Origin: Deltaproteobacteria bacterium | GTDB lineage: Bacteria; Myxococcota; Myxococcia; Myxococcales; Anaeromyxobacteraceae | Length of the DNA: 64,000 nucleotides | Direction of reading: 5' to 3' | Assembly: GCA_016214955.1 (NCBI GenBank) | Contig: JACRMN010000002.1 | Location: 1 to 64,000, forward strand | In this document: in pieces, positions 1-12,098 of the stretch | Numbering within the stretch: the first letter of the stretch is position 1 | Layout of the letters: each line of letters begins with the position of its first letter | Notes under the pieces: model-generated | Seen by the model: the letters and a program-made list of their open reading frames with translations, nothing else | Databases searched by the model: none | Told to the model about the DNA's origin: nothing | Program-made: the position numbers and the translations under genes

Positions 1-1
1 C

Positions 2-79
2 GGCGCGGCTGCCGGCGCGGCGGTCTCGATCCTCTCCGGCCCGGTGAAGAAGCCTGTGGCCCAGGCCTCCAAGGCCTAA
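2..79 (+). CDS. 3' end of 99-aa repeat-family membrane protein (copy 1, cut by window edge)
   Basis: Only the last 25 codons are inside the window. They match the C-terminus of the complete copies at 4334 and 11496 (…SILSGPVKKPVAQASKA) almost residue for residue, and end with TAA. The family is a small membrane protein rich in Gly, Ala and Val with no function I recognise. The rest of this copy, including any sigma-54 promoter, lies to the left of the window, so I cannot say whether it is intact. Confidence 0.75.
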   Translation, partial: GAAAGAAVSILSGPVKKPVAQASKA

Positions 80-103
80 GCTCCCCGCACCCTCGCAGCA
101 GAC

Positions 104-131
104 GCGGCCCGGGCCTCTCGGCTCGGGCCGC
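104..131 (+). terminator. Hairpin in repeat tail, copy 1
   Basis: A 28-nt sequence folds into a 12-bp stem (one G-T wobble) with a TCTC loop; the outer arms are GCGGCCCG and CGGGCCGC. It begins 24 nt after the stop codon of copy 1 and the same hairpin follows all five copies in the window. No T-run follows, so it is not a classical Rho-independent terminator, but a transcription-stopping or RNA-stabilising role is the simplest reading. Confidence 0.6.
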
Positions 132-144
132 TGCCGTTCCCAGG

Positions 145-178
145 CCCGCTCCCGCCGCGGTGGTTTGCGGGAGGCGGG
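145..178. promoter_or_regulatory. Imperfect inverted repeat upstream of the kinase-TPR gene
   Basis: CCCGCTCCCGC (145-155) and GCGGGAGGCGGG (167-178) are nearly complementary, 11 nt apart, and lie 38 nt before the GTG start at 216. It could be an operator or a leader hairpin. GC-rich DNA produces such pairs easily, so support is weak. Confidence 0.25.
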
Positions 179-215
179 CGCGGGCGCGTAGCATCGAGCC
201 CTTCCCGGGGGGCTC

Positions 216-3092
216 GTGGGCGAAGCAGAAGGCCAGGCGCGCGGCGACCTGACGGCCCTCCTCGAGGCGCTGGCGAAGGCGCCCGAGCCCGGCGGAGCCT
301 GGGCGGAGGAGCTTTGTCCCGGCGAGACGCTGGACCGCTTCCAGGTGCTGCGGGAGCTGGGGCGGGGCGGGTTCGGCGCGGTCTACGAGGCGCTCGACCG
401 CGAGCTGGGCCGGCGGGTGGCGCTGAAGACGCTGCGGCCGGGGCGCGCCCGCGACGAGTGGGCCGGCGCCGCCATCCGCGCCGAGGCGCAGGCGGCGGCG
501 CGGCTCTCGCACCCGGGCATCGTCACGCTCTACGAGGCATGCACCTGCGAGAAGGGGCCCTACCTGGTGCTGGAGCTGCTCCACGGGGAGACGCTGGAGG
601 AGCGGCTTCTCCGCGGGCCGGTGCCGCTCGCCGAGGCACTGGAGATCGGTCAGCAGACGGCGCGGGCGCTGGCCTACGCGCACGGCGAGGGGCTGGTGCA
701 CCGCGATCTCAAGCCCGCCAACCTGCACCTGGGCGAGGACGGGCGGGTGAAGCTGCTCGACCTGGGGCTGGCGCACCTGCTTGGCGGAAAGGCGCAGTCG
801 GGGGGGACGCCGGCCTACGTGGCGCCGGAGCAGTGGCTGGGACAGCCGGTGGACGGCAAGGCCGACGTCTTCTCCCTGGGGGCGGTGCTCCACGAGCTGC
901 TCTCGGGACGGCGGCCGTTCGAGGTGAAGGAGGGGCGAAGCGCTGCGCTCGACGGCGAGGCGGCGCCGCCGCTGGCGGGGAGGCAGCCGCGGCGGCTCGC
1001 GGCGCTGGTGGCGCGGTGCCTCTCCGCGAAGCCGGGGGAGCGGCCCACGGCGGCGCAGGTGGCCGAGGAGCTGCGCGGGCTGCAGCAGGCCCAGGCCCGG
1101 CCGAGGCAGCTCCGACGCCTGGCGCTGCTGGCGGTGGCAGGCGCCGCGGCCGGCGCGCTCCTGGCCGGCCTGGCCATCCGGTGGCTCTCGCCCAGCGTGC
1201 CGGCGCCCGGTCCCGACGGGCGCATCGTGGTGGCGGTGGCCGACTTCGCCAACGAGACCCGCGACCCGGAGCTGGACGGGCTCTCCGACCTGCTCATCAC
1301 CTCGCTCGAGCAGTCGCAGCGGCTCCGGGTGCTGACGCGCAGCCGCATGGTCGACGTGCTCCGGCAACTCGGCAAGACCGGGGTCGAGCGCATCGACGAG
1401 CGGCTGGGGCGCGAGGTGGCGCTGGCCGCCGGCGGGCGCGCCCTGGTGGTGGCCACCCTGCGCCGCTTCGAGGCTCTGTACGCCATCGACCTCAAGGTGC
1501 TCGATCCGGTGACCAGCGAGTACCTGGTCACCTTGAAGGAGGAGCGCGCCGGCAAGGCCTCCATCCCCGGCATGCTCGACCGGCTCTCGGCGCGGACCCG
1601 CGAGCGCCTGCGCGAGAGCCCCGGCGAGGTCAGCGCCTCGCAGGTGCACGTCGCCGAGGCTGTCACCGCGAACCCCGAGGCCTGGGGCCACTACGCCGAG
1701 GGGCTTCGCCACGAGAGCGCCACCGACAACCTGCGCGCGGTCCTCGCCTACCGCAGGGCGGTGGCCGCCGACCCGCGGTTCGCGCTGGCCCACTACCGGC
1801 TCGCCTACCTGGGCGAGTACGCGGGGCTCGACCGCGCGGTTCGCGAGGCCTCGATGGAGGCCGCCTACCGGGAGGTGGAGCGGATGCCGGCCAAGGAGCG
1901 GCTCCTCTTCCACGCCTGGAAGGCGCATGTCGACGGGCGCGACGCCGACGCCCTGGCCCTGTACTCCCGTGCCGCCGAGGCCTATCCGCTCGACAAGGAG
2001 GTGCTGTACCTCGCAGGCGACCTCTACCTCCACCAGGGCAGGGCGGCGGAGGCGCTGCCGTGGTTCGAGCGAGCGGTGGCCCTCGACCCCACCTGGCCCG
2101 AGGCCCAGAAGCATCTGCTCCAGGACGCGCTTCCCATGCTGGGCCGTGGCGAGGAGGCCCTGGCGCGGGCGCGCGCCAGGGCAGAGGCCTCTCCGGGGCT
2201 CGCCACGCGCAACACCGTCGTCTTCCTCCTCAGCGCCCTCCGGCGGCACGACGAGGCCCTGGCACTCTCCCGCCAGGGGGCGGAGCGGGATCCCGGGCGC
2301 GTCTCGCGCGCCTGGCTGCTCACCAGCCTGGTCCTCGCCGGCCGCTACCAGGAGGCCGAGGCGCTGGCGCGCTCGGGCGTCGCCGCGCCCTCGTCGGACG
2401 ACCCGCTGGCCGACGCCGGCCCCCTGGCGGCGGTCCTCGAGCACCAGGGCCGGCGGCGCGAGGCGCTGGCCGCGCTCGAGCCCGGACGAGCGCCAGACCT
2501 CCATCCCGAGGTCCGCCGCTGGGCCCGCTGGGCCCTCCTCATGGACCAGCGCGACAGGCGGCCCGCGCTGGCCATGGCCGAGGGGATCCGGCAGACCGGC
2601 GAGACCAGGCAGGGGCTGTTCACCGGGTACTTCCTGCTCGGCGAGGACCGGCGCGCCGCCGAGTCGGCGGTGGGGCTCCGGGGATACGACCGGGAGCTGT
2701 ACGAGGGCATCCTCCTCTGGCGGCGCGGCGACGCGGTCGCGGCTGCCGCGCGGCTGCGCCCGCTCCTCTCGGCCGACCCCAACCGCCGCGACTTCTGGAG
2801 CTGGTGGTTCTCCTACGTGGCCTTCGACGCCCACCTCGACGCCGAGGCCATCGCCGCCGCCGATCGGTTCGAGGCCTCCCGGTACTACGCCCTCGTGCCC
2901 TGGCGCGGCTGGGGGCTCGCCCGCCTGCAGGTGCGCAAGGCCGAGGCCCAGGCGCGGCTCGGGGACCGGGCCGCGGCCCTGGCCACGGTCGATCGGCTCC
3001 TCGACCGCTGGAAGCAGGCCGACCCCGACCTTCCGCTCCTCGCCGAGGCACGCGCCCTCCGGCGCCGGCTGGCCTCGGCGCCGGGCCGCTGA
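216..3092 (+). CDS. Membrane Ser/Thr protein kinase with FlgO/TolB-like and TPR domains
   Basis: 958 aa with a GTG start after a G-rich ribosome-binding site. The kinase domain spans about 42-285: glycine loop GRGGFG (49-54), VALK lysine at 71, HRDLKPAN (162-169), a DLG variant of the DFG motif (182-184) and APE (203-205). One membrane segment lies at about 301-323. A domain starting GRIVVAVADFANET (336 on), of the type found in TPR-coupled kinases and cyclases, follows, and the rest is tetratricopeptide repeats. The kinase is therefore cytoplasmic and the TPR part probably periplasmic. It lies between repeat copies 1 and 2. A scrap of a paralogue's C-terminus sits beside repeat copy 4 (10018-10083). 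Its substrate is unknown. Confidence 0.9.
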   Translation: MGEAEGQARGDLTALLEALAKAPEPGGAWAEELCPGETLDRFQVLRELGRGGFGAVYEALDRELGRRVALKTLRPGRARDEWAGAAIRAEAQAAARLSHPGIVTLYEACTCEKGPYLVLELLHGETLEERLLRGPVPLAEALEIGQQTARALAYAHGEGLVHRDLKPANLHLGEDGRVKLLDLGLAHLLGGKAQSGGTPAYVAPEQWLGQPVDGKADVFSLGAVLHELLSGRRPFEVKEGRSAALDGEAAPPLAGRQPRRLAALVARCLSAKPGERPTAAQVAEELRGLQQAQARPRQLRRLALLAVAGAAAGALLAGLAIRWLSPSVPAPGPDGRIVVAVADFANETRDPELDGLSDLLITSLEQSQRLRVLTRSRMVDVLRQLGKTGVERIDERLGREVALAAGGRALVVATLRRFEALYAIDLKVLDPVTSEYLVTLKEERAGKASIPGMLDRLSARTRERLRESPGEVSASQVHVAEAVTANPEAWGHYAEGLRHESATDNLRAVLAYRRAVAADPRFALAHYRLAYLGEYAGLDRAVREASMEAAYREVERMPAKERLLFHAWKAHVDGRDADALALYSRAAEAYPLDKEVLYLAGDLYLHQGRAAEALPWFERAVALDPTWPEAQKHLLQDALPMLGRGEEALARARARAEASPGLATRNTVVFLLSALRRHDEALALSRQGAERDPGRVSRAWLLTSLVLAGRYQEAEALARSGVAAPSSDDPLADAGPLAAVLEHQGRRREALAALEPGRAPDLHPEVRRWARWALLMDQRDRRPALAMAEGIRQTGETRQGLFTGYFLLGEDRRAAESAVGLRGYDRELYEGILLWRRGDAVAAAARLRPLLSADPNRRDFWSWWFSYVAFDAHLDAEAIAAADRFEASRYYALVPWRGWGLARLQVRKAEAQARLGDRAAALATVDRLLDRWKQADPDLPLLAEARALRRRLASAPGR

Positions 3093-3208
3093 CGCTCGGC
3101 CGCCGTCCCCACGACCTCCCACACCCGCTGTCCGCCGTTCCCGCCGGACTCGTCGGCGGGATCCGACAGCAGGAGTGCGCAAGTGCCCGGAATCCGGTGC
3201 CGGAGGAG

Positions 3209-3224
3209 TGGCAGGGCACGTGCA
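3209..3224 (+). promoter_or_regulatory. Sigma-54 (-24/-12) promoter, copy 2
   Basis: TGGCAGGGCACGTGCA fits the sigma-54 pattern: the GG and GC elements are separated by exactly 10 nt, within TGGCA…TGCA. The same 16 nt occur at the same distance from the ATG in copies 3 and 5. It would need an ATP-dependent enhancer-binding protein; a GTCGG-N6-CCGAC inverted repeat about 40 nt upstream is a possible binding site. Confidence 0.6.
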
Positions 3225-3297
3225 ATCTCTCTGGCCATACGGCGCACGGCGCCGAGAGCCTCGAAGGCAAACGCAGACCAACCCACGGAGAAACACC

Positions 3298-3406
3298 ATG
3301 AACCGCAAGACCCCCACTCTCATCGGCGCCGGCGTCGGACTCGCTGTCTTCCTGGCGGTCGGCCTCCTGCCTGCCCTGCTGTACGGCGGCTACGCCCAAG
3401 GCCTAA
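3298..3406 (+). pseudogene. Truncated 99-aa repeat-family gene (copy 2)
   Basis: The first 32 codons (MNRKTPTLIGAGVGL… to LLYGGYA) match the intact copies. A deletion then fuses them out of frame to the final codons, so the ancestral stop (3404-3406) is no longer read. Reading continues to 3576 and would run antisense over the last ~100 nt of the nucleotidyltransferase gene. The promoter and start are intact, so a chimeric product with one membrane segment is possible, but I treat the gene as broken. Confidence 0.8.
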
Positions 3407-3430
3407 GCTCCCCGCACCCTCGCAGCAGAC

Positions 3431-3458
3431 GCGGCCCGGGCCTCTCGGCTCGGGCCGC
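3431..3458 (+). terminator. Hairpin in repeat tail, copy 2
   Basis: Identical in sequence to the hairpin at 104-131: a 12-bp GC stem with a TCTC loop. It stands between the broken copy 2 gene and the convergent nucleotidyltransferase gene (stop at 3479-3481), so it could end transcription from either side. Confidence 0.6.
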
Positions 3459-3478
3459 TGCCGTTCCCGGCCTGCAGA

Positions 3479-3934
3479 TCAGCGCCCGCGCAGGCGGGCC
3501 AGCATGTCCAGGTCGGCCAGGTCCTGCGGCCGCCCGCTGGCTCGCTTGTTCTGCTCCAGGTGGCGCCGCGAGATGACCGGGACCTCCTGCCCGCCGTAGG
3601 TGGTGGCGGCGCGGTCGGGCCAGGCCTCTTCGAAGGTCACGCCATCGACGGAGGTGAGGACGTCGATGCGCACCGGGGCGACGCCGATCTGGAAGACGAT
3701 GCCGGGGGTCGCGAGGTCGAATGGCCGAAGCTCGCCGAGCGGTGCTCCGAAGCGCCCCAGCGCCCGGTGTACCCGGGCAGCATTCTCCGCGGTGGGGTTC
3801 ACCCAGACATCGAGGTCGCGCGTGTAGCGGGGCGCGGCGTGCACGGCCAGCGCATAGCCGCCGACGAGCAGGTACTCAGCCGCCTCGGCGTTCAATGCAG
3901 CAAACAGATCGCTGAAGTCGGGGTTCGGGTCCAT
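3479..3934 (-). CDS. MNT-fold nucleotidyltransferase (DUF6036/AbiEii-like)
   Basis: 151 aa. It has the pattern of small pol-beta-type nucleotidyltransferases: EYLLVGGYALAVH near residues 20-32, the metal-binding DLDVW shortly after, and a third acidic position in RIDVLTSVD. Such proteins resemble AbiEii/MNT toxins or antitoxins that modify RNA or proteins with nucleotides. Its 5' end overlaps the upstream partner gene by 59 nt in another frame, which implies translational coupling. The pair lies between repeat copies 2 and 3, so it looks like cargo. Activity as a toxin is inferred from relatives, not shown here. Confidence 0.8.
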   Translation of the reverse strand: MDPNPDFSDLFAALNAEAAEYLLVGGYALAVHAAPRYTRDLDVWVNPTAENAARVHRALGRFGAPLGELRPFDLATPGIVFQIGVAPVRIDVLTSVDGVTFEEAWPDRAATTYGGQEVPVISRRHLEQNKRASGRPQDLADLDMLARLRGR

Positions 3935-4109
3935 CCGGGCTCCGCCAGGCCAGGTCCTCGAGGACCAGAGTCCACACCGCTGCCATGCGCTCCGATGGCG
4001 TCACCGAGTGCCAGAAGTCGCGATCGAAGGCGCCGTCGTCGCCGTGCAGCGCAACGAGGCGGCTCCTTCCGGTGGCGCGGCGCGCACGAGCGTCCATGGC
4101 CGCCATCAT
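3876..4109 (-). CDS. Small partner protein of the nucleotidyltransferase
   Basis: About 73-77 aa; ATG codons at 4109, 4106 and 4097 are all possible, and a GAGGT stretch lies just upstream of the first. The features FDRDFWHSVTPSERMAAVW and a C-terminus of the PEPRLQRSV type match, from memory, a small family found directly upstream of this nucleotidyltransferase type, with a conserved WxxxxxxER-like core. The last 59 nt are read in a second frame as the start of the nucleotidyltransferase. A toxin-antitoxin-like or regulatory pairing is inferred. Confidence 0.7.
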   Translation of the reverse strand: MMAAMDARARRATGRSRLVALHGDDGAFDRDFWHSVTPSERMAAVWTLVLEDLAWRSPDGPEPRLQRSVCCIERRGG

Positions 4110-4244
4110 ACCTCAGGGCTCCGCTCGAGCCGGCCGGCCGCCCGGCTCGCGCTCCCACACCCGCTGTCCGCCGTTCCCGCCGGACTCGTCGGCGGGATCC
4201 GACAGCAGGAGTGCGCAAGTGCCCGGAATCCGGTGCCGGAGGAG

Positions 4245-4260
4245 TGGCAGGGCACGTGCA
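4245..4260 (+). promoter_or_regulatory. Sigma-54 (-24/-12) promoter, copy 3
   Basis: TGGCAGGGCACGTGCA has GG-N10-GC spacing. A start about 12 nt downstream would give an untranslated leader of roughly 60 nt before the ATG at 4334. Conservation in three copies, while flanking bases vary, supports function. Confidence 0.65.
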
Positions 4261-4333
4261 ATCTCTCTGGCCATACGGCGCACGACGCCGGGAGCTTCGA
4301 AGGCAAACGCAGACCAACCCACGGAGAACCACC

Positions 4334-4633
4334 ATGAACCGCAAGACCCCCACTCTCATCGGCGCCGGCGTCGGACTCGCTGTCTTCCTGGCCGTGGGCC
4401 TCCTGCCCGCGCTGCTGTACGGAGGCTACGCGGGCGTGCTCCTGGCGGGCGGCTTCGTGGGCACCCCGGTGCAGCCGACGCTGTTCGTCCGGGCCCTCAT
4501 CGTCTTCGGGATGGCGCTGGGCGTCGTCGGGGTGGGCAGCCTCTTCGCGGTGGGCGGCGCGGCCGCCGGCGCGGCGGTCTCGATCCTCTCCGGGCCGGTG
4601 CGGAAGCCGGCCGCCCAGGCCTCCAAGGCCTAG
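4334..4633 (+). CDS. 99-aa glycine-rich membrane protein (repeat-family copy 3)
   Basis: 99 aa with a short basic N-terminus (MNRKTP) followed by two or three hydrophobic stretches: about 8-30 (LIGAGVGLAVFLAVGLLPAL), 34-45, and 52-86, the last ending in a small-residue GxxxGAAAGAAV helix. The C-terminus is basic (…RKPAAQASKA). This predicts an inner-membrane protein with glycine-zipper packing. It differs from copy 5 at only three residues. I do not recognise a family. An unknown enhancer-binding protein would control it through the sigma-54 promoter. It could be a holin-like, pore or stress-response protein, but nothing in the sequence decides this. Confidence 0.75.
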   Translation: MNRKTPTLIGAGVGLAVFLAVGLLPALLYGGYAGVLLAGGFVGTPVQPTLFVRALIVFGMALGVVGVGSLFAVGGAAAGAAVSILSGPVRKPAAQASKA

Positions 4634-4658
4634 GCTCCCCGCAGCCCTCGCAGCAGGC

Positions 4659-4686
4659 GCGGCCCGGGCCTCTCGGCTCGGGCCGC
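4659..4686 (+). terminator. Hairpin in repeat tail, copy 3
   Basis: The same 28-nt stem-loop as in the other tails. Here it follows an intact gene by 25 nt and lies before the convergent regulator gene whose stop is at 4740. Confidence 0.6.
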
Positions 4687-4739
4687 TCGCGTCTGCAGGG
4701 AGGGGATGCGCACCCGACAGCCGAGCGGGACGCGAAGGA

Positions 4740-7574
4740 TCAATCCCCCGGCTTGCTGCTGAGGCGCCGACCGGAGCCCTTTCGCGGCTGGCCCGGGGGC
4801 GGTGTCTCCGTCGAGCGTTCCGTCCGACCCCGGGAGGCGTCCCGGGCGGGCCTCGCGGCGTCGGTGAGGGCCGCGAGGCTGGCCATCGCGCGCTGCTCGA
4901 GGCTCCGGGCTCCCGTCGAGCGCGCGCGCTCGATGGCCTCTTGGTAGTCCCGGCTCGCCGCGGCGGGATCGGCTCCCTGCCGCTGCTCGCCACGCATCCG
5001 CAGCAGCTCGGGCAGGTACACGCTCTCGTCGTGCGCGAGCGCGAAGTCGATGATCTCGTCGGTCAGCCGCTGCGCCTGGGGGGCATGCCCGGAGCTTCTC
5101 AGCACCTCGATCAGCACCTGCGCGAGCAGGGTGGAGCAGGTCGAGACCTCGTTCAGCCGCTGGCGCAGGGCATCGAGGTGCGGCTCGATGGCGGGCAGCG
5201 CGAGCGGCTCACGCAGGGCCTCCGCCCACAGCGCGAAGGCGCGCGCCTCGGTGTGCAGGCCCAGGTCCAGGGCGGACACGCGAACGGCCTGTCGTGCCTC
5301 TGCCTCGACGACCGCCAGCGGATCGCGGCGCAGGAAGCGCAGCCGCGCGCGCACCACGTGTCCGAGCGCCTGCAGGATGGGGAGCCCGAGCCGGTCCGCC
5401 AGCTCGATCGTCGCGAGCGCCTCCCCGAGCGCGCGGTCGGCGTCGCCGACGACCCAGCGCAAGCAGGCGAGGTGGCCGAGCGCCAGGGCCCTCCCCGGGA
5501 GGTTGTCGCGAAACGGCGACGCCTCCCCCTCCGCGGGCACCAGGCGCTCGAGCAGCCGCAGCGCGGTGCCGAGATCGGCGCTGAAGAAGGCGGTGTAGGC
5601 CCGGGCGAAGATCCCGCCGTGGAGGAGCACGGGGTCGAGGTCGTGCGCCTGCTCGATCTGCTCGAGCTCGGCGGCCAGCGGCCTCGAGCGATCGTACTCG
5701 GCGACGATCATGTTGTAGTTGCACAGGTGGGTGATCGCCGAGTACAGGCTCGGAGGGTCGCCCAGCGAGCGGGCGATCTCGATGGCGCGGGCGTGGACCG
5801 CGAGTGGCTCCCGCCCCGCAAAGGCCGCGCTGAAGGTGTTCGAGCTGACCTGTCGGCACAGCGTCTCGTGGACCTGGAGCTCGAGCAGGTCGCGCTCGCG
5901 GCCTGCGGCCACGCCCGGCAGCAGCTGCAGCGCGCGCGTGCAGAGGGCGACGGCGTCCGAGGTCGCGTTGCGCAGGCCGGCCTGGCGTCCCGCGCCCGCG
6001 TAGGCGGCGACCGCGCGGGCCGCGTCGCCTGCCGCGTCGAAGTGCTTCGCGAGCAGGTGGGAGAGCTCGCCGGAGCGCGGGTCGCGCTCGATGGCCTCCG
6101 CGATGAGCCGGTGCCAGCGCTGGCGGCGCAACGGGCTGCTGCGCTCGACGCATACCTCCTGGACCAGCGCATGGGTCATGCCATAGCGATCGCCGGGCTC
6201 CGCGCGCAGGAACAGCGAGCGGCGCAACAGCCCATCGCACGTTTCGTCGACCTGCTCGACCGGCATCTCCAGCGCGGCGGCGACCAGGCCGGTGGAGAAT
6301 TCGGAGCCCACCACGCTGGCCGCCTCGAGCACGCGCTGCTCGGTCGCAGACAGGCGGTCGAGCTGGATGTCGATGAGCTGCTTCACGCTGGCGGGCCGGT
6401 GCGCCTCCACCTCGCCGATCGAGACCGCCAGGGTCCACTGGCCGTCGCGCTCGGTGAGCATCTCCCGGCCGGCCAGCTCGTCGAGCAGCGACACCATGAA
6501 CAGCGGCGTCCCGCCGGTGATCTTCGTGACCAGGCTGGTCAGCTCCCCGGGAAATGCATGCCCGGGGAACCGCCGATCGATGAAGGTCTGCACCGCGGCG
6601 GCGCTGATGCTCGGCACCTCGACGGCCAGCGCGCCCGAGCGGGCGACCAGGGATCGCATCACGGGATAGAGCGGGTGGTCACCGCCCTGGACCTCCGCGC
6701 GTCGCAAGGTCCCGAGCAACAGCAGCCTGGCGGGCTCCTGCCGCTGGGCCAGCAGGGACAGCAGGTCGATCGTCGCGACGTCGGACCACTGCAGGTCCTC
6801 GAGCGCCAGCACCAGCGGCTCGCGCCAGCAGAGCGCCTCGAGGGCCTGGCTGAGCTCGCGGAGCTGCCGGGCCTCGTTGCCGCCGGCGGCGCGCCGCGCG
6901 ACCTCGGCGAGCTGCTCGTCGGGGATGAGCTGCGGCACCTGTGCCGCGAAGGTCGGCGCGTACCGGACCAGCGCCGCCAGCGTCTGCGGACCGCGCGGGG
7001 AGCGCACGAGCGCCGCCAGCGCCTCGATGATGGCGAGGTACGGCTCGGGGGTGCCGTGCTGCTCGAAGCACGATCCGCGGGCGACGATCACCGTGCGCGG
7101 ATCGAGGCCCGCGAGGAAGGTCCGGACGATCGTCGACTTGCCGATCCCTGGCTCGCCGGTGACGAAGCACAGCTGCCGGTGGCCTCCACGCGCCCGCTCG
7201 AGCGCCGCGCGCAGGACCTCCAGCTCCGCCTCGCGACCGACCACGAGAGGGTCGACGTGCCCGGGCCCCGCGCGCGCGTCGACGCGCTCGCCGAGCTCGG
7301 CCACGAACCGGTAGCCGCGCCCGATCACCGTCTCGATCACGCCCTCGCCCAGCACCTGCCGGAGCTCGTGCAGGTGGCTGCGCACCGCGCTGTCACTGAC
7401 CACGTCGCCGCGCCACACCTGCGCCAGCAGCTCCTCGTGGGTGACCAGTTTCCTCGGGTGCGCGGCGAGGTAGCACAGGATCGCGAACGGCTTGCGGCGC
7501 AGGGAGAGCGGGCGGTCGTCCTTCCAGAGCAGGCCTTCGTCGGCGTCCAGCCGAAACGGGGGAAAGAGGACCAT
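4740..7574 (-). CDS. Winged-helix transcriptional regulator with AAA ATPase and TPR-like domains
   Basis: 944 aa from the ATG at 7574, chosen because MVLFPPFRLDADEGLLW is the usual beginning of an OmpR/PhoB-type DNA-binding domain; an in-frame start at 7688 would add an unrelated tail. The winged helix covers about 1-95. A P-loop ATPase follows, with Walker A GEPGIGKST near residue 145 and Walker B-like LVLALEDLQW. A long helical region with TPR-like character fills the C-terminal half. Such proteins are cytoplasmic signal-integrating ATPase regulators whose ligand is usually unknown. It is divergent from the universal-stress gene at 7724, with an inverted repeat in the 149-nt gap, so self-regulation and control of that group is likely. 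Confidence 0.88.
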   Translation of the reverse strand: MVLFPPFRLDADEGLLWKDDRPLSLRRKPFAILCYLAAHPRKLVTHEELLAQVWRGDVVSDSAVRSHLHELRQVLGEGVIETVIGRGYRFVAELGERVDARAGPGHVDPLVVGREAELEVLRAALERARGGHRQLCFVTGEPGIGKSTIVRTFLAGLDPRTVIVARGSCFEQHGTPEPYLAIIEALAALVRSPRGPQTLAALVRYAPTFAAQVPQLIPDEQLAEVARRAAGGNEARQLRELSQALEALCWREPLVLALEDLQWSDVATIDLLSLLAQRQEPARLLLLGTLRRAEVQGGDHPLYPVMRSLVARSGALAVEVPSISAAAVQTFIDRRFPGHAFPGELTSLVTKITGGTPLFMVSLLDELAGREMLTERDGQWTLAVSIGEVEAHRPASVKQLIDIQLDRLSATEQRVLEAASVVGSEFSTGLVAAALEMPVEQVDETCDGLLRRSLFLRAEPGDRYGMTHALVQEVCVERSSPLRRQRWHRLIAEAIERDPRSGELSHLLAKHFDAAGDAARAVAAYAGAGRQAGLRNATSDAVALCTRALQLLPGVAAGRERDLLELQVHETLCRQVSSNTFSAAFAGREPLAVHARAIEIARSLGDPPSLYSAITHLCNYNMIVAEYDRSRPLAAELEQIEQAHDLDPVLLHGGIFARAYTAFFSADLGTALRLLERLVPAEGEASPFRDNLPGRALALGHLACLRWVVGDADRALGEALATIELADRLGLPILQALGHVVRARLRFLRRDPLAVVEAEARQAVRVSALDLGLHTEARAFALWAEALREPLALPAIEPHLDALRQRLNEVSTCSTLLAQVLIEVLRSSGHAPQAQRLTDEIIDFALAHDESVYLPELLRMRGEQRQGADPAAASRDYQEAIERARSTGARSLEQRAMASLAALTDAARPARDASRGRTERSTETPPPGQPRKGSGRRLSSKPGD

Positions 7575-7640
7575 CGAATGGAGACCTAGCGGGGGCGGAT
7601 CCACGCCGCGAGCGCTCGCGATGGACCAATCGGGGGCCGA

Positions 7641-7656
7641 TCCAACGCGGATTGGA
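7641..7656. promoter_or_regulatory. Candidate operator between divergent regulator and uspA-like gene
   Basis: TCCAACGCGGATTGGA is a perfect 5-bp inverted repeat (TCCAA/TTGGA) around 6 nt. A further ATCCAACGG half-site lies at 7671-7679 and ACCAATCGG at 7624-7632. The cluster sits in the only gap between the divergent genes, where a winged-helix regulator would bind. Confidence 0.4.
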
Positions 7657-7723
7657 CGCCGGCAGGCCGGATCCAACGGAGAGCCCACGGCCGTCGAGGG
7701 GGGCCTCCGGCATCTTCAGGCGC

Positions 7724-8182
7724 ATGCAAACCCTCCGACAGCTCGTCTCCGGCACCGACTTCAGCGCATGCGCGGCGGACGCCCTCGAGCAGGCCATCGC
7801 GCTCGCGCTCGCCGCCTCCGCGCGGGTCACCCTGGTCCACGTCCAGGAGCATGGCGACGACGAACTCGACGACCGCCTCCTCCTCCAGTGCCAGGCGGCG
7901 CTGTCCGAGCTCGTGTCCCGGCATCGGCGCCGCGGCGTCGAGCTCACCGGCGTCCTCCGCCGGGGCAAGCCGTGGGCCAAGCTCGACAACGTCGCCGCCG
8001 AGGTCGGGGCCAGCCTGATCGTGGTCGGCCGGCACGGCGCCGGCCGCGGGCGGAGCCTCGACCTCGGCTCCGTGGCGGCGCACCTGGTGCGCGCCGCCAA
8101 CCGGCCCGTGCTGGTCGTGGGCTGCGGCTGCGATCCCGACCGCCACCCCGCTGAGCCGCAGGAAGCCAACACCTCACCCTGA
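7724..8182 (+). CDS. Universal stress protein (UspA family)
   Basis: 152 aa from the ATG at 7724. It has the UspA fold pattern: an N-terminal LVSGTDFS strand with its aspartate, RVTLVHVQEH, and the nucleotide-binding motif IVVGRHG…GSVAAHLVRAANRPVLVV near the C-terminus, a form of the G2xG9xGS/T ATP-binding consensus. Usp proteins are cytoplasmic stress factors. It is first in a run of four genes and only 13 nt ahead of the outer-membrane protein gene, so they are probably co-transcribed. Confidence 0.88.
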   Translation: MQTLRQLVSGTDFSACAADALEQAIALALAASARVTLVHVQEHGDDELDDRLLLQCQAALSELVSRHRRRGVELTGVLRRGKPWAKLDNVAAEVGASLIVVGRHGAGRGRSLDLGSVAAHLVRAANRPVLVVGCGCDPDRHPAEPQEANTSP

Positions 8183-8195
8183 AAGGAGAAGCACC

Positions 8196-8723
8196 ATGAA
8201 GAACCTCGGAACCCCGCCCGCAGCACCCTCCCGGCGCGCGCCGCGCACGCTCCTGGCCCTCGCCGCCCTCCTCCTGTCGGTGCAGGTCGCCGCGGCCGAG
8301 GGGCACCACTCTGGCTGGAGCATCAACTTCACCCCCGTGCTCATCCTGCCCTCGGGCGGGTATCGCCTCGGCTGGGGGGTCGACCCGGAGCTGAAGTACA
8401 CGCTCGATCTGGGCGAGGCGCGGTTCAGCGCCGGTGGCCGCGTGGGCGTGAGCCACGCGAAGAACCAGCTCGGCGTGACGGTGATGCCGACGCTCCGTCT
8501 GACGGTGCCGATCGGCAGGGTCGAGCCCTACGCGTCCGCCGGCCTGGGCTACGGCTGGCTCCCGGAGGCCGGACGCGACGGCGTGGCGACCATGGGTCGG
8601 CTCGGCCTCGTGTACCGGTTCAGCGAGCGCCTCGCGATTGGCCTGGAGGGCACCCTCCAGCGCATCGATGGCTCCCGGCACCAGTTCCGGTCCCTCGGCT
8701 CGATGATCTCGTTCGATCTCTAG
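8196..8723 (+). CDS. Small outer-membrane beta-barrel protein
   Basis: 175 aa with a strong ribosome site (AAAGGAG) before the ATG. A signal peptide runs to about 35 (LLALAALLLSVQVAAAE). The rest alternates short amphipathic strands with turns (FTPVLILP, ELKYTLDLG, RVGVSHAKN, PTLRLTVPIG, PYASAGLGYGW) and ends in ISFDL, giving a C-terminal aromatic pattern typical of barrels recognised by BamA. Its length suits an eight-stranded OmpA/OmpW-like barrel. The ligand is unknown. Confidence 0.75.
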   Translation: MKNLGTPPAAPSRRAPRTLLALAALLLSVQVAAAEGHHSGWSINFTPVLILPSGGYRLGWGVDPELKYTLDLGEARFSAGGRVGVSHAKNQLGVTVMPTLRLTVPIGRVEPYASAGLGYGWLPEAGRDGVATMGRLGLVYRFSERLAIGLEGTLQRIDGSRHQFRSLGSMISFDL

Positions 8724-8761
8724 GAGCGGCCGTGTCCTTCACAGCCAAATCGGAGGAAGCC

Positions 8762-9442
8762 ATGAGCCGCTCTCGCCTTGCAGACTCCCTGGCCGTGGCC
8801 GGCCTCATCCTGCTCGGGATCGTGCCTGCGATCGCCGGATCGATGCGCCTGCGCCAGATCGCCGGGGGGATCGCGACCGCGGACAACGCGCGCTTCCTGG
8901 CGATGCCGTGGCCGGTCGTGGTGCACATCGTCGGTGCGATCCTCTTCGCGCTGCCCGGTGCGCTCCAATTCTCCGCGGAGCTTCGGCGGCGCCGGATGGC
9001 GTGGCACCGCCTGGCGGGTGCCATCCTCGTCCCCTGCGGCCTCGCCGTGTCGCTGAGCGGGCTCTGGATGGCGCAGTCCTACCCCCGGGTGGACCTCGAC
9101 GGAGCGGTGGTCTACGGGATGCGCATCCTCGTCGGCGCGCTGATGACCGCCTCCCTGTGGCTCGGGGTCTCGGCCGTGCGCAGGCACGACATCGCGGCGC
9201 ATCGTGCGTGGATGATGCGGGCCTACGCCCTGGCGATGGGCGCCGGTACCCAGGTGCTCACCCACCTGCCCATGATGGTCGCCCCGTCGCTCTGGAGCGA
9301 GCTCTCGCGGGCCATCGCCATGGGTGCGGGGTGGGCCATCAACATCCTCGTCGCCGAGCTCCTCATCCAGCGATCCGCGCACCCCGGGGCGGCGGGCAGG
9401 GAGGCCACGCCGGCCCTTCGCCTTCCGGCAGGCCTTCCATGA
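8762..9442 (+). CDS. DUF2306-type integral membrane protein
   Basis: About 226 aa from the ATG at 8762 (CGGAGGAAGCC before it); an ATG at 8732 lacks a good ribosome site. Six or so hydrophobic helices are visible, with the family-typical pattern: a central WHRLAG motif after a helix ending LQFSAELRRRR, and AAHRAWMMRAYAL near residue 150. The function of DUF2306 proteins is not established. The stop overlaps the next gene's start (ATGA), so the two are translationally coupled. Confidence 0.75.
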   Translation: MSRSRLADSLAVAGLILLGIVPAIAGSMRLRQIAGGIATADNARFLAMPWPVVVHIVGAILFALPGALQFSAELRRRRMAWHRLAGAILVPCGLAVSLSGLWMAQSYPRVDLDGAVVYGMRILVGALMTASLWLGVSAVRRHDIAAHRAWMMRAYALAMGAGTQVLTHLPMMVAPSLWSELSRAIAMGAGWAINILVAELLIQRSAHPGAAGREATPALRLPAGLP

Positions 9443-9945
9443 CCACGGCCATGGAGTTCGTCCTCCGAAGCGCCCTCATCGGCATCGGTGCCACGCTGGT
9501 CATGGACCTCTGGGCGGCCCTGCTCCGACGCCTCGGCGTCTCCTCGCTGGACTTCGCGCTGCTCGGGCGCTGGATCGGCCACCTCCCCCGGGGCCGCCTC
9601 ATCCACGTCAGCATTGCCGGGACTCCCGCGGTTCGAGGCGAGCGGCTCATCGGCTGGTCCGCGCACTACTCGATCGGCATGGCCTTCAGCGCGCTCCTGC
9701 TCGCGACGTTCGGGCTGGAGTGGGCGCGCGCGCCGACGCTGCTCCCCGCGCTGCTCATCGGGGTCGTGACGGTCCTCGCGCCCTGGCTCGTGCTCCAGCC
9801 CGCGCTGGGTGCGGGGGTCGCTTCGTCCAGGACGGCCCGTCCCGTCTTCAACAGCGTCAAGAGCCTGATCACGCACACGGTCTTCGGGTTCGGGCTCTTC
9901 GTCGCCGCGCGCGTCCTCGCCTTCCTTCTTCCCGCCACCCGCTGA
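9439..9945 (+). CDS. DUF2938 family integral membrane protein
   Basis: 168 aa with four hydrophobic segments. The start MEFVLRSALIGIGATLVMDLW, the RWIGHLPRGR segment and the stretch TARPVFNSVKSLITHTVFGFGL fit the DUF2938 family. Its ATG overlaps the TGA of the DUF2306 gene. Pairing of two uncharacterised membrane families under a stress-protein gene suggests a shared envelope task, which is inference. Confidence 0.75.
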   Translation: MTTAMEFVLRSALIGIGATLVMDLWAALLRRLGVSSLDFALLGRWIGHLPRGRLIHVSIAGTPAVRGERLIGWSAHYSIGMAFSALLLATFGLEWARAPTLLPALLIGVVTVLAPWLVLQPALGAGVASSRTARPVFNSVKSLITHTVFGFGLFVAARVLAFLLPATR

Positions 9946-10017
9946 CTCTCGGGCTGTTCACGAGCGTCAGGCAACGACCCGCGACAACGGATGAGCCGGG
10001 CCGCGGGGTGACTGCGC

Positions 10018-10083
10018 GCCGACCCCGACCTGGCCCAGCTGCAGGACGCCCGGGCGCTGCGGAAGCGGCTCGTCGCGCGCTGA
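10018..10083 (+). pseudogene. C-terminal scrap of a second kinase-TPR gene
   Basis: 21 codons read DPDLAQLQDARALRKRLVAR then TGA. They align with the end of the intact kinase-TPR protein (DPDLPLLAEARALRRRLAS, 3031-3092). No matching sequence precedes 10018, so a paralogue was lost except for its last helix. The scrap lies a few bases before the repeat-tail remnant at 10091, the same neighbour the intact gene has. Confidence 0.65.
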
Positions 10084-10090
10084 GCGAGAG

Positions 10091-10183
10091 GCCTGCCGCC
10101 CAGGCCTCCAAGGCCTAGCCTCAGCGCAGCCTCGCAGCAGGCGCGGCCCGGGCCTCTCGGCTCGGGCCGCTGCCGTTCCCGGG
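10091..10183 (+). repeat. Dispersed repeat unit, copy 4 (tail only)
   Basis: It begins within the last codons of the 99-aa gene (GCCCAGGCCTCCAAGGCCTAG), continues through the conserved spacer CAGCCTCGCAGCAGGCG and the hairpin, and ends in CTGCCGTTCCCGGG like copies 1 and 2. Leader, promoter and the first ~90 codons are absent. The gap from 9946 to 10260 holds only this, the kinase scrap and the start region of the next gene. Confidence 0.8.
10143..10170 (+). terminator. Hairpin in repeat tail, copy 4
   Basis: The same 28-nt stem-loop (12-bp stem, TCTC loop), kept although the gene it once followed is gone. Confidence 0.55.
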
Positions 10184-10260
10184 GGACGGGCATCCAGCCC
10201 GCACCGCGTTCGCCATGGTTCCGGGCCAGCGCACGGCCCGATCCAGTAGACTCGCGCGCC

Positions 10261-11256
10261 GTGAAGACCGCCTTCGTCACCGGTGCCGCAGGCTTCCTCG
10301 GCGTGAACCTCGCCGCCGTCCTCCGCGAGGCCGGCTGGCGCGTCGTCGCCGTCCATCGGCCCGCCTCCCGCCTGTCCAGACTCCGCGCCCTGGGCGTGGA
10401 GCTGCTTCCCGGCGACCTCCACGACCAGGCCTCGCTGGAGCGCGCCATGCCCGATGGCGCCGACGCCGTCTTCCACGTGGCCGGCAACACCTCGGTCTGG
10501 TCGGGAAACGACGCCGTTCAGACGCGGGACAACGTCGATGGCACGCGCCACGTGGCGGCCGCCGCGCTGGTGCGCGGCGCGCGCCGCCTGGTCCACACCT
10601 CGAGCGTGGCGGTCTTCGGGCTGGGCGCGGGTCGCGTGGACGACGAGACGCCCCCCGCCGAGAGCTGCTGGGTGAACTACTACCGCACCAAGCGCCTCGC
10701 CGAGCGCGAGGTGGAGGAGGCGGCGGCCCGCGGGCTCCCGACGGTGGTGCTCCGCCCCGGCAACATCATCGGCCCCGAGGATCGCACCACCTGGGTCCAG
10801 CTCGTCCGGCTGGTGGCGCAGGGCCGCCTGCCGGGAACGCCGCCCGGCCGAGCCTCGTGGTGCCACGTGCGCGAGGTGGCCCGCGCCCACCTCGCCGCTG
10901 CCGAACGGGGCCGGCCGGGGTCGGCCTACGGGCTCTCCTGCGTGGAGGCCAGCTACGCCGAGTTCGTCGCCAGCGTCGCGGCCGCCACGGGGGGACGCGC
11001 GCCGCCCGTCCTGCCCGCCGTGGCCCTGCGCGCTTACGCTCGCTTGCTCGCGCTGGGGAGTGCGCTCACCCGCCGTCAGCCCGCGGTCACGCCCGAGGGC
11101 GTCGCCGCCACGTGCAACCGGATCACCATGGACTCCTCCCGGGCCCAGCGGGAGCTCGGCTACCAGCCCGCGACGCTCCAGCAGATGGTCGCCGACTGCG
11201 TGGCCTGGCTCCGGTCCGAAGGGCTCTTGCCGGGCGAGGCCGGTCACCGGCCCTAG
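10261..11256 (+). CDS. NAD(P)-dependent epimerase/dehydratase (extended SDR)
   Basis: 331 aa with a GTG start. The Rossmann motif TGAAGFLG (7-14), the DxxD-like GDLHD, HVAGNTSVW, the catalytic Ser region VHTSSVAVFG and the YxxxK catalytic pair in NYYRTKRLAE define an extended short-chain dehydrogenase. It resembles hopanoid-associated or 3-beta-hydroxysteroid/flavonoid-type reductases more than sugar epimerases, but the substrate cannot be told. It stands alone between repeat copies 4 and 5, as a cargo gene. Confidence 0.85.
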   Translation: MKTAFVTGAAGFLGVNLAAVLREAGWRVVAVHRPASRLSRLRALGVELLPGDLHDQASLERAMPDGADAVFHVAGNTSVWSGNDAVQTRDNVDGTRHVAAAALVRGARRLVHTSSVAVFGLGAGRVDDETPPAESCWVNYYRTKRLAEREVEEAAARGLPTVVLRPGNIIGPEDRTTWVQLVRLVAQGRLPGTPPGRASWCHVREVARAHLAAAERGRPGSAYGLSCVEASYAEFVASVAAATGGRAPPVLPAVALRAYARLLALGSALTRRQPAVTPEGVAATCNRITMDSSRAQRELGYQPATLQQMVADCVAWLRSEGLLPGEAGHRP

Positions 11257-11406
11257 ACCGCGCCTCGGTCGATTCGGCCGCCGCTCTCACGCCCTCCCAT
11301 ACCCACACCCGCGAAAGCGCCCCGGCTGTCCGCGGTTTCCGGCGCCCTCGTCGGGGGGATCCGACAGGAGGGATGCTCAAGTGCCCGGAATCCGGTGGCG
11401 GGGGAG

Positions 11407-11422
11407 TGGCAGGGCACGTGCA
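11407..11422 (+). promoter_or_regulatory. Sigma-54 (-24/-12) promoter, copy 5
   Basis: TGGCAGGGCACGTGCA is identical to copies 2 and 3, although the surrounding leader has diverged. That selective conservation is the best argument that it is a working promoter. Confidence 0.65.
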
Positions 11423-11495
11423 CTCTCTCTGGCCATACGGCGCACGACGCCGAGAACCTCGAAGGCAAACGCAGACCAACCCACGGAGAACCACC

Positions 11496-11795
11496 ATGAA
11501 CCGCAAGACCCCCACTCTCATCGGCGCCGGCGTCGGACTCGCGGTCTTCCTGGCGGTCGGCCTCCTCCCGGCCCTGCTGTACGGCGGCTACGCCGGCGTG
11601 CTCCTGGCGGGCGGCTTCGTGGGCACCCCGGTGCAGCCGACGCTGTTCGTCCGGGTCCTCATCGTCTTCGGGATGGCGCTGGGCGTCGTCGGCGTGGGCA
11701 GCCTCTTCGCGGTGGGCGGCGCGGCCGCCGGCGCGGCGGTCTCGATCCTCTCCGGGCCGGTGAAGAAGCCGGTGGCCCAGGCCTCCAAGGCCTAG
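11496..11795 (+). CDS. 99-aa glycine-rich membrane protein (repeat-family copy 5)
   Basis: 99 aa, nearly identical to copy 3; the differences are FVRV for FVRA and KKPVAQ for RKPAAQ. It has the same basic N-terminus, two or three membrane helices and small-residue C-terminal helix. Near identity at protein level with many silent differences in the DNA suggests selection on the protein rather than only recent copying. No family recognised. Confidence 0.75.
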   Translation: MNRKTPTLIGAGVGLAVFLAVGLLPALLYGGYAGVLLAGGFVGTPVQPTLFVRVLIVFGMALGVVGVGSLFAVGGAAAGAAVSILSGPVKKPVAQASKA

Positions 11796-11813
11796 CCTCA
11801 GCGCAGCCTCGCA

Positions 11814-11857
11814 GCAGACGCGGCCCGGGCCTCACGGCTCGGGCCGCTCGCGTCTGC
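11814..11857 (+). terminator. Extended bulged hairpin in repeat tail, copy 5
   Basis: The common GC hairpin is flanked here by a second perfect arm pair, GCAGACGC (11814-11821) and GCGTCTGC (11850-11857), giving a long stem with a small one-sided bulge. The loop is TCAC instead of TCTC. Copies 1 and 2 keep the left arm but lack the right one. Confidence 0.55.
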
Positions 11858-12098
11858 AGGGGAGAGGTATCCCTCCACTCCGAATTCGACGCAGTTCCGT
11901 CCCGGCGGGCGGACGGTGGAGCGGAGATCTGGCAGCCCTTCACGGGCAGTCCCCTCTTCCCCCGGCGGACGTCATCCCGCTCCGAGCGTCCGAGTCGACG
12001 CGCCCGCCCCGGACCCGGCCCGGGCCGCCCCCTCCACTGGCAGTCCCGGCCCTGCCGCACTACGCTCCAGGGACCCGCCCACTCCGCCGGAGCACCCC

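Follow-up and report, generated by a model that had tools for sequence, protein, structure and literature searches.

Prokaryotic pseudogenes and gene remnants are treated by Liu et al. (2004, PMC522871), and in the portion of that paper drawn on here the emphasis falls on the failure of transferred genes themselves. The locus that we describe resembles such cases, in that a short, apparently non-functional piece of a gene from a large family lies in DNA that bears traces of horizontal transfer. Unlike in that portion of the paper, however, it is a resident gene that appears to have been lost, beside a transferred block. The second point of comparison is provided by the kinase-TPR proteins of the Anaeromyxobacteraceae, which combine Pkinase and TPR. 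Like these proteins, the piece studied here, hereafter the scrap, has a C-terminal motif of the ADPDLPLLAEAKALRRRL type with a stop soon after, whereas it keeps just the last 22 codons and has an invariant proline replaced. No paper on this locus was found in the literature by title or abstract start.

The whole stretch of DNA that was analysed (64,000 nucleotides, hereafter the window) opens contig C29; the genome is 5.3 Mb in size and assembled in 30 contigs. A sequence-only reading had taken the scrap and the repeat unit next to it for what is left of a joint duplication of the kinase-TPR gene at 216-3092 and its own unit, after a later event had removed most of both. Here we show that the scrap is a genuine gene remnant with an ordinary history that can be partly reconstructed, and we correct the tempting story of co-duplication.

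A kinase-TPR gene remnant at 10015-10083

On the plus strand, the frame at 10015-10083 translates to RADPDLAQLQDARALRKRLVAR followed by a stop and represents the last 22 codons and stop of a lost kinase-TPR gene; the intact kinase at 216-3092 ends in QADPDLPLLAEARALRRRLASAPGR followed by a stop. For the C-terminus of the family we built a position-specific scoring matrix (PSSM) of 22 columns from 33 kinase-TPR C-termini, which are the 42 open frames that reach the kinase C-terminus minus nine duplicates or off-family sequences, and from which the scrap was excluded. The scrap (10015-10080) scored 38.5 bits with this matrix and family members scored 21.3 to 58.2 bits, whereas 200 first-order Markov sequences, each 64 kb long, reached 17.0 bits at most. 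The best score at a non-kinase place was 15.6 bits in the first set of loci and 17.6 bits in 53 loci of the repeat unit (L176). Window ORFs of at least 12 aa were also scanned with a full-length HMM, built from 32 kinase sequences that partly came from overlapping loci; it ranked the scrap third in the window (E 0.006; next E 0.75) and placed it at model positions 936-956, the kinase end. Across the genome, a 22-position profile (29 rows; 150 of 249 candidates scored) returned eight kinase ends and, as the ninth match, the scrap at E 0.0028, the next matches among the scored candidates having E 0.18 and above. The scrap is a remnant of another gene of the kinase-TPR family, and the claim that 21 codons at 10018 match the end of the kinase-TPR protein is borne out, with an alignment beyond chance in the profile searches. 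Chance resemblance in GC-rich DNA might be suspected for a match of just 22 codons, but with 38.5 bits set against the null maximum and with the clear gap in the genome-wide ranking its probability is next to nil, and we rejected it on three profile tests (PSSM, full-length HMM and genome-wide profile). A family profile can tell a 22-codon remnant from chance.

The open frame around the scrap has 23 codons and is closed off by an in-frame stop immediately upstream; the scrap combines homology to part of a gene with the lack of a complete reading frame, as a gene remnant should. Its C-terminal profile match above chance places it with the kinase-TPR family, whereas its 22 codons hold neither a kinase domain nor TPR repeats. 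Other kinase pieces were not found near the scrap, the full-length HMM gave no trace of a kinase front in the window, and a search by DNA and profile for longer kinase homology upstream of 10015 was negative. The proline of the DLP motif, held by 33 of 33 aligned members and likewise invariant in a set of 29, is an alanine in the scrap, a stretch too short for a rate test. Because this family-invariant proline has been lost, the scrap looks, on sequence grounds, like decaying DNA, and it is most likely without a function of its own. Its stop lies a few codons past the motif, and the kinase at 216-3092 and those on contigs C6, C21 and C27 also stop soon after it; in the C12 kinase and the three C17 kinases, unlike the scrap, the frame extends beyond the motif.

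Kinase-TPR genes of the genome

The intact kinase-TPR gene of the window (K1; 216-3092, plus strand; Pkinase and TPR in Pfam) has a repeat unit, unit B, directly on its 3' side. In the genome as a whole, the profile (150 of 249 candidates scored) located eight kinase ends, namely K1, one each on C6, C12, C21 and C27, and three on C17. The sequence-only reading had proposed looking for further paralogues bordered by repeat units, and this search went against it: of the eight ends, that of K1 at 3092 alone has a detected unit directly next to it. For the C6 and C27 kinases and one C17 kinase, a contig end is close by and may conceal a unit, and the unit on C12 is about 2.8 kb away from the kinase gene. 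The three kinase-TPR genes on C17 (L047) form a cluster, and their C-terminal ends are nearly identical (53-54 of 57 nt).

Comparison over 57 nt showed that the scrap agrees with K1 at 37 nt, 6 of 19 third positions and 13 of 19 residues, and with the C12 kinase, its nearest paralogue in the genome, at 43 nt, 12 of 19 third positions and 15 of 19 residues. The closest DNA is a kinase of G012, a genome of another genus (L125), which agrees at 46 of 57 nt and exceeds any own kinase. When 16 kinases (eight of this genome, eight of relatives) are compared two by two, agreement runs from 28 to 54 of 57 nt, and the scrap is no closer to K1 than family kinases are to one another. The 57 nt are too short for a phylogeny, and placement of the scrap within the family is not possible from them.

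Repeat units beside the remnant

The window's contig holds five copies of the repeat unit, A to E, all on the plus strand. Unit C (4150-4700, by blastn) is complete and carries the gene of a 99-aa membrane protein at 4334-4633, and unit E (11322-11861), likewise complete, is 93% identical to it. Unit A is present as a tail at the contig start (1-149; blastn and alignment to other copies). Because the end of C12 and the start of C29 hold complementary parts, one unit (A) probably spans the gap between them, its head being the end of C12; the assembly break falls inside a unit copy (C12 end and window position 1). The C12 kinase and K1 are probably chromosomal neighbours, a join that we infer from the contig ends. 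Unit B (3083-3470 by alignment to other copies, with the unit copy itself at 3116-3459) has lost its middle by an internal deletion. Over 313 nt, a stretch that takes in the final 10 nt of each upstream gene, it agrees at 99.4% with the copy at the C12 end. Upstream of the unit, copies A and B agree over 33 nt; an esterase gene in one case and K1 in the other, which are unrelated, contribute their final 10 nt (GR and stop) to this flank. On the minus strand, the interval from unit B to unit C holds an AbiEii-like nucleotidyltransferase gene and a small gene before it (3479-4109; Pfam).

Unit D (10087-10183; 86-93% by blastn) lies directly 3' of the scrap, in agreement with the claim that the scrap adjoins a repeat unit. 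It consists of the last nine codons, the stop and a hairpin that by eye is terminator-like, and its head and body are missing; 10088-10171 matches unit positions 454-538 at 93%. The identity of this tail is 92% to unit B (75 nt), 93% to C (85 nt), 90% to A (97 nt) and 86% to E (109 nt). In the alignment it is a mosaic, in which the part after the stop is like copy E and the 3' flank is like copies A and B; this flank type is common to the A, B and D tails, and C and E differ. Unit D is followed by an NAD-dependent epimerase/dehydratase gene (10261-11256, plus strand; Pfam Epimerase, E 4e-35). Turnover at the repeats, a general point of the earlier reading, is well seen, in that unit B lacks its middle, unit D lacks its front and a unit copy of G012 (L099) has an independent internal deletion.

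Elsewhere in the genome, unit copies were found at the C12 end and as a tandem pair on C26, together with two short weak matches on C3. Genes next to the C26 pair are again found next to the unit pairs of three relatives (3 of the 12 loci that were compared), and the C26 place is therefore probably ancestral.

A probably acquired five-gene block

Between unit C and the scrap lies a block of five genes (4866-9946) that aligns end to end, collinear and at 86% DNA identity, with part of G057 (C133:2594-7681), a genome of another family in the same order. By Pfam, the genes encode an AAA-domain regulator on the minus strand, which extends to 4740, and, on the plus strand, a universal stress protein, an outer-membrane-like protein whose Pfam scores are below the cut-off, DUF2306 and DUF2938. 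Among the matches listed, with two candidates scored per genome, a full-length match occurs in 1 of 194 other genomes of the phylum, which is G057; some match to the block is present in 150 of 195 phylum genomes, the others listed at the same depth being pieces of at most 499 nt. DUF2938 and DUF2306 each occur in a single family genome out of 24, the one studied here, and likewise in just this one out of the 16 with a completeness of 90% or more and a contamination of 5% or less. Across the phylum, 12 of 195 genomes carry DUF2938, and G057 has the nearest copy, at 82%.

The block shows two marks of an acquired island, absence in close relatives and a conserved gene order, with high identity, in a distant genome. 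Its composition is not unusual, with a GC content of about 0.70-0.76 against about 0.71-0.80 around it, and this result counts against transfer. On the strength of the 86% DNA match to another family and the rarity of full-length matches elsewhere in the phylum, the block was probably acquired from outside the family, and it is from the same comparisons that we infer the horizontal direction. G057 is a 730-contig assembly with 5% contamination, and a misplaced contig was considered, but the placement is not obviously wrong; the first 2500 nt of the G057 contig match 6 of 6 other genomes of its genus (G053 with 84% over 938 nt), and this match of the contig flank to its own genus counts for transfer.

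The DNA match to G057 stops at 9946, one base past the DUF2938 stop, and the scrap starts 68 nt on. In the other loci compared, the sole match of this junction stretch (9947-10014) is one of 23 nt at E 0.058. On the left side, 165 nt (4701-4865) are outside the G057 match, of which 4740-4865 are the regulator tail. Neither transposase nor end repeats were recognised at the block borders, where matches were at most 11 nt, and Pfam gave no integrase among the five block genes.

In G057, Pfam searches of five frames from the flanks gave helix-turn-helix and amidohydrolase matches and no transposase, and the contig has no match to K1 or to the unit. The block sits there between two copies of a dispersed 277-nt repeat (L210 2216-2528 and 9495-9806), which are 86% alike and 7.3 kb apart, and further copies of this repeat occur elsewhere in G057's genus. 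Here, the block lies between unit copies.

Origin of the remnant

We favour, as a probable if by no means secure account, that a third kinase-TPR gene of this locus left the scrap as its 3' end, that the probably acquired block now takes up the room of its front, and that unit D was cut separately. The locus would have carried several kinases of the family and would have gained unit copies between genes. A third kinase-TPR gene, presumably complete at that time, old and already diverged from its neighbours, would have stood between units C and D, and such a position is plausible because the order unit, kinase, unit is seen at 1-3470. The five-gene block may then have entered between unit C and the end of the third kinase, and its arrival, or a deletion beside it, would most likely have removed the kinase front, then or soon after. 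A second, separate deletion would have joined the 3' flank of the kinase to the last nine codons of the following unit. With sequence lost on both sides of the kinase end that survives, no fewer than two breaks are required; a single deletion, as implied by the 'later event' of the sequence-only reading, is impossible, and the acquired block explains the left-hand loss better than that event. Short as it is, a remnant of this kind may help to order the loss of a gene relative to an incoming block.

In support of a lost third kinase, the nearest own paralogue of the scrap is the kinase on C12, a contig whose end probably joins the start of the window's contig. Against it stand the 68 nt of unassigned sequence between block and scrap, the fact that the C12 kinase does not stop at the scrap's point and the failure to find a relative with the intact third gene. 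In a search for a relative with both the epimerase locus and an intact kinase, 60 genomes yielded an epimerase homologue of 54% identity at best, and 20 epimerase loci (own included, with flanks of only about 1.5 kb) contain no K1 match.

A whole kinase need not have stood here if a unit had been copied together with the last codons of a source kinase as its 5' flank and had then lost its head. The upstream flank shared by units A and B, with the ends of two genes in it, suggests that a unit copy probably did once take a gene end. The piece carried to the scrap's position would, however, have been about 66 coding nt against 10 in the A and B case, no own kinase is close enough to be a recent source (best 43 of 57 nt), and the part of unit D that would show the flank has been lost, so that we consider this origin unlikely. 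Arrival of the kinase end with the acquired block, as flanking DNA of the donor, would agree with a distance of only 68 nt from the block and with a closest DNA match outside the genome (46 of 57 nt). Yet in G057 the DNA match goes no further than the DUF2938 stop, and K1 has no match on that contig. Moreover, no outside source of the kinase end is needed, because kinases with a TPR region of the K1 type occur in 21 of 24 family genomes; we give this explanation very little credence.

The duplication of K1 and its unit as one block, with a later deletion of most of the copy, has in its favour that a kinase end is followed by a unit, as at 3092, that the A, B and D tails have a common type of 3' flank, unlike C and E, and that the scrap stops near the K1 stop position. 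A kinase and a unit duplicated together should have diverged equally, but the identity between scrap and K1 is 65% (37 of 57 nt, with 6 of 19 third positions, a level also seen between other kinases) and that between the tails of units D and B is 92% (69 of 75 nt; Fisher p = 1.4e-4; p = 0.013 with the C12 kinase in place of K1), in a contrast that sets coding against partly non-coding DNA and in which gene conversion among units could feign youth. With the unit D tail at 86-93% to the others, joint duplication is left unsupported, and the unequal divergence in these alignments weakens the claim without closing it. For this reason, simple duplication of K1 and unit was rejected as the leading reading. 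A single deletion could not have spared a kinase end flanked by losses on both sides, and no detected unit directly adjoins any of the seven other kinases; such a duplication appears quite improbable.

The repeat unit across the family

Of wider interest is the repeat unit itself. Its small membrane gene is spread across the family and has promoter-like signals that are conserved, and copies of the unit have been gained and cut down. Its 99-aa protein has no Pfam match. In a search of 60 genomes, the protein was found in 23, all of them within the 24 genomes of the family (own included), with up to nine matches per genome. Upstream of the gene, a sigma-54-like site (10 of 12 consensus positions) is present in 21 of 27 copies, against an average of 0.11 and a maximum of 2 in shuffles, and a palindrome of the GTCGG..CCGAC type in 17 of 27 (shuffles: average 0.37, maximum 3); these 27 copies (window 4334-4633 and upstream, L042, L043 and L099-L118) are related and hence not independent. 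Speculatively, and with considerable doubt, the unit might be a self-contained gene cassette, made up of a sigma-54-type promoter, the palindrome, the membrane protein and a terminator, that multiplies in the family, carries and cuts gene ends and marks the entry of foreign blocks, and the scrap might be one of its footprints.

Among 53 partly overlapping unit loci (20 + 33) in other genomes, no kinase scraps were found, the best PSSM score of this set belonging to a non-kinase place, and there was no match to the K1 TPR region at E 1e-8. Some kinase domain is present in 7 of the first 20 loci. The 33 loci that encode the unit protein comprise 26 from Anaeromyxobacter or Anaeromyxobacteraceae, three from Myxococcales MAGs and four from other MAGs. 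Weaker relatives of the protein, at 36-43%, occur at four places in three other MAGs.
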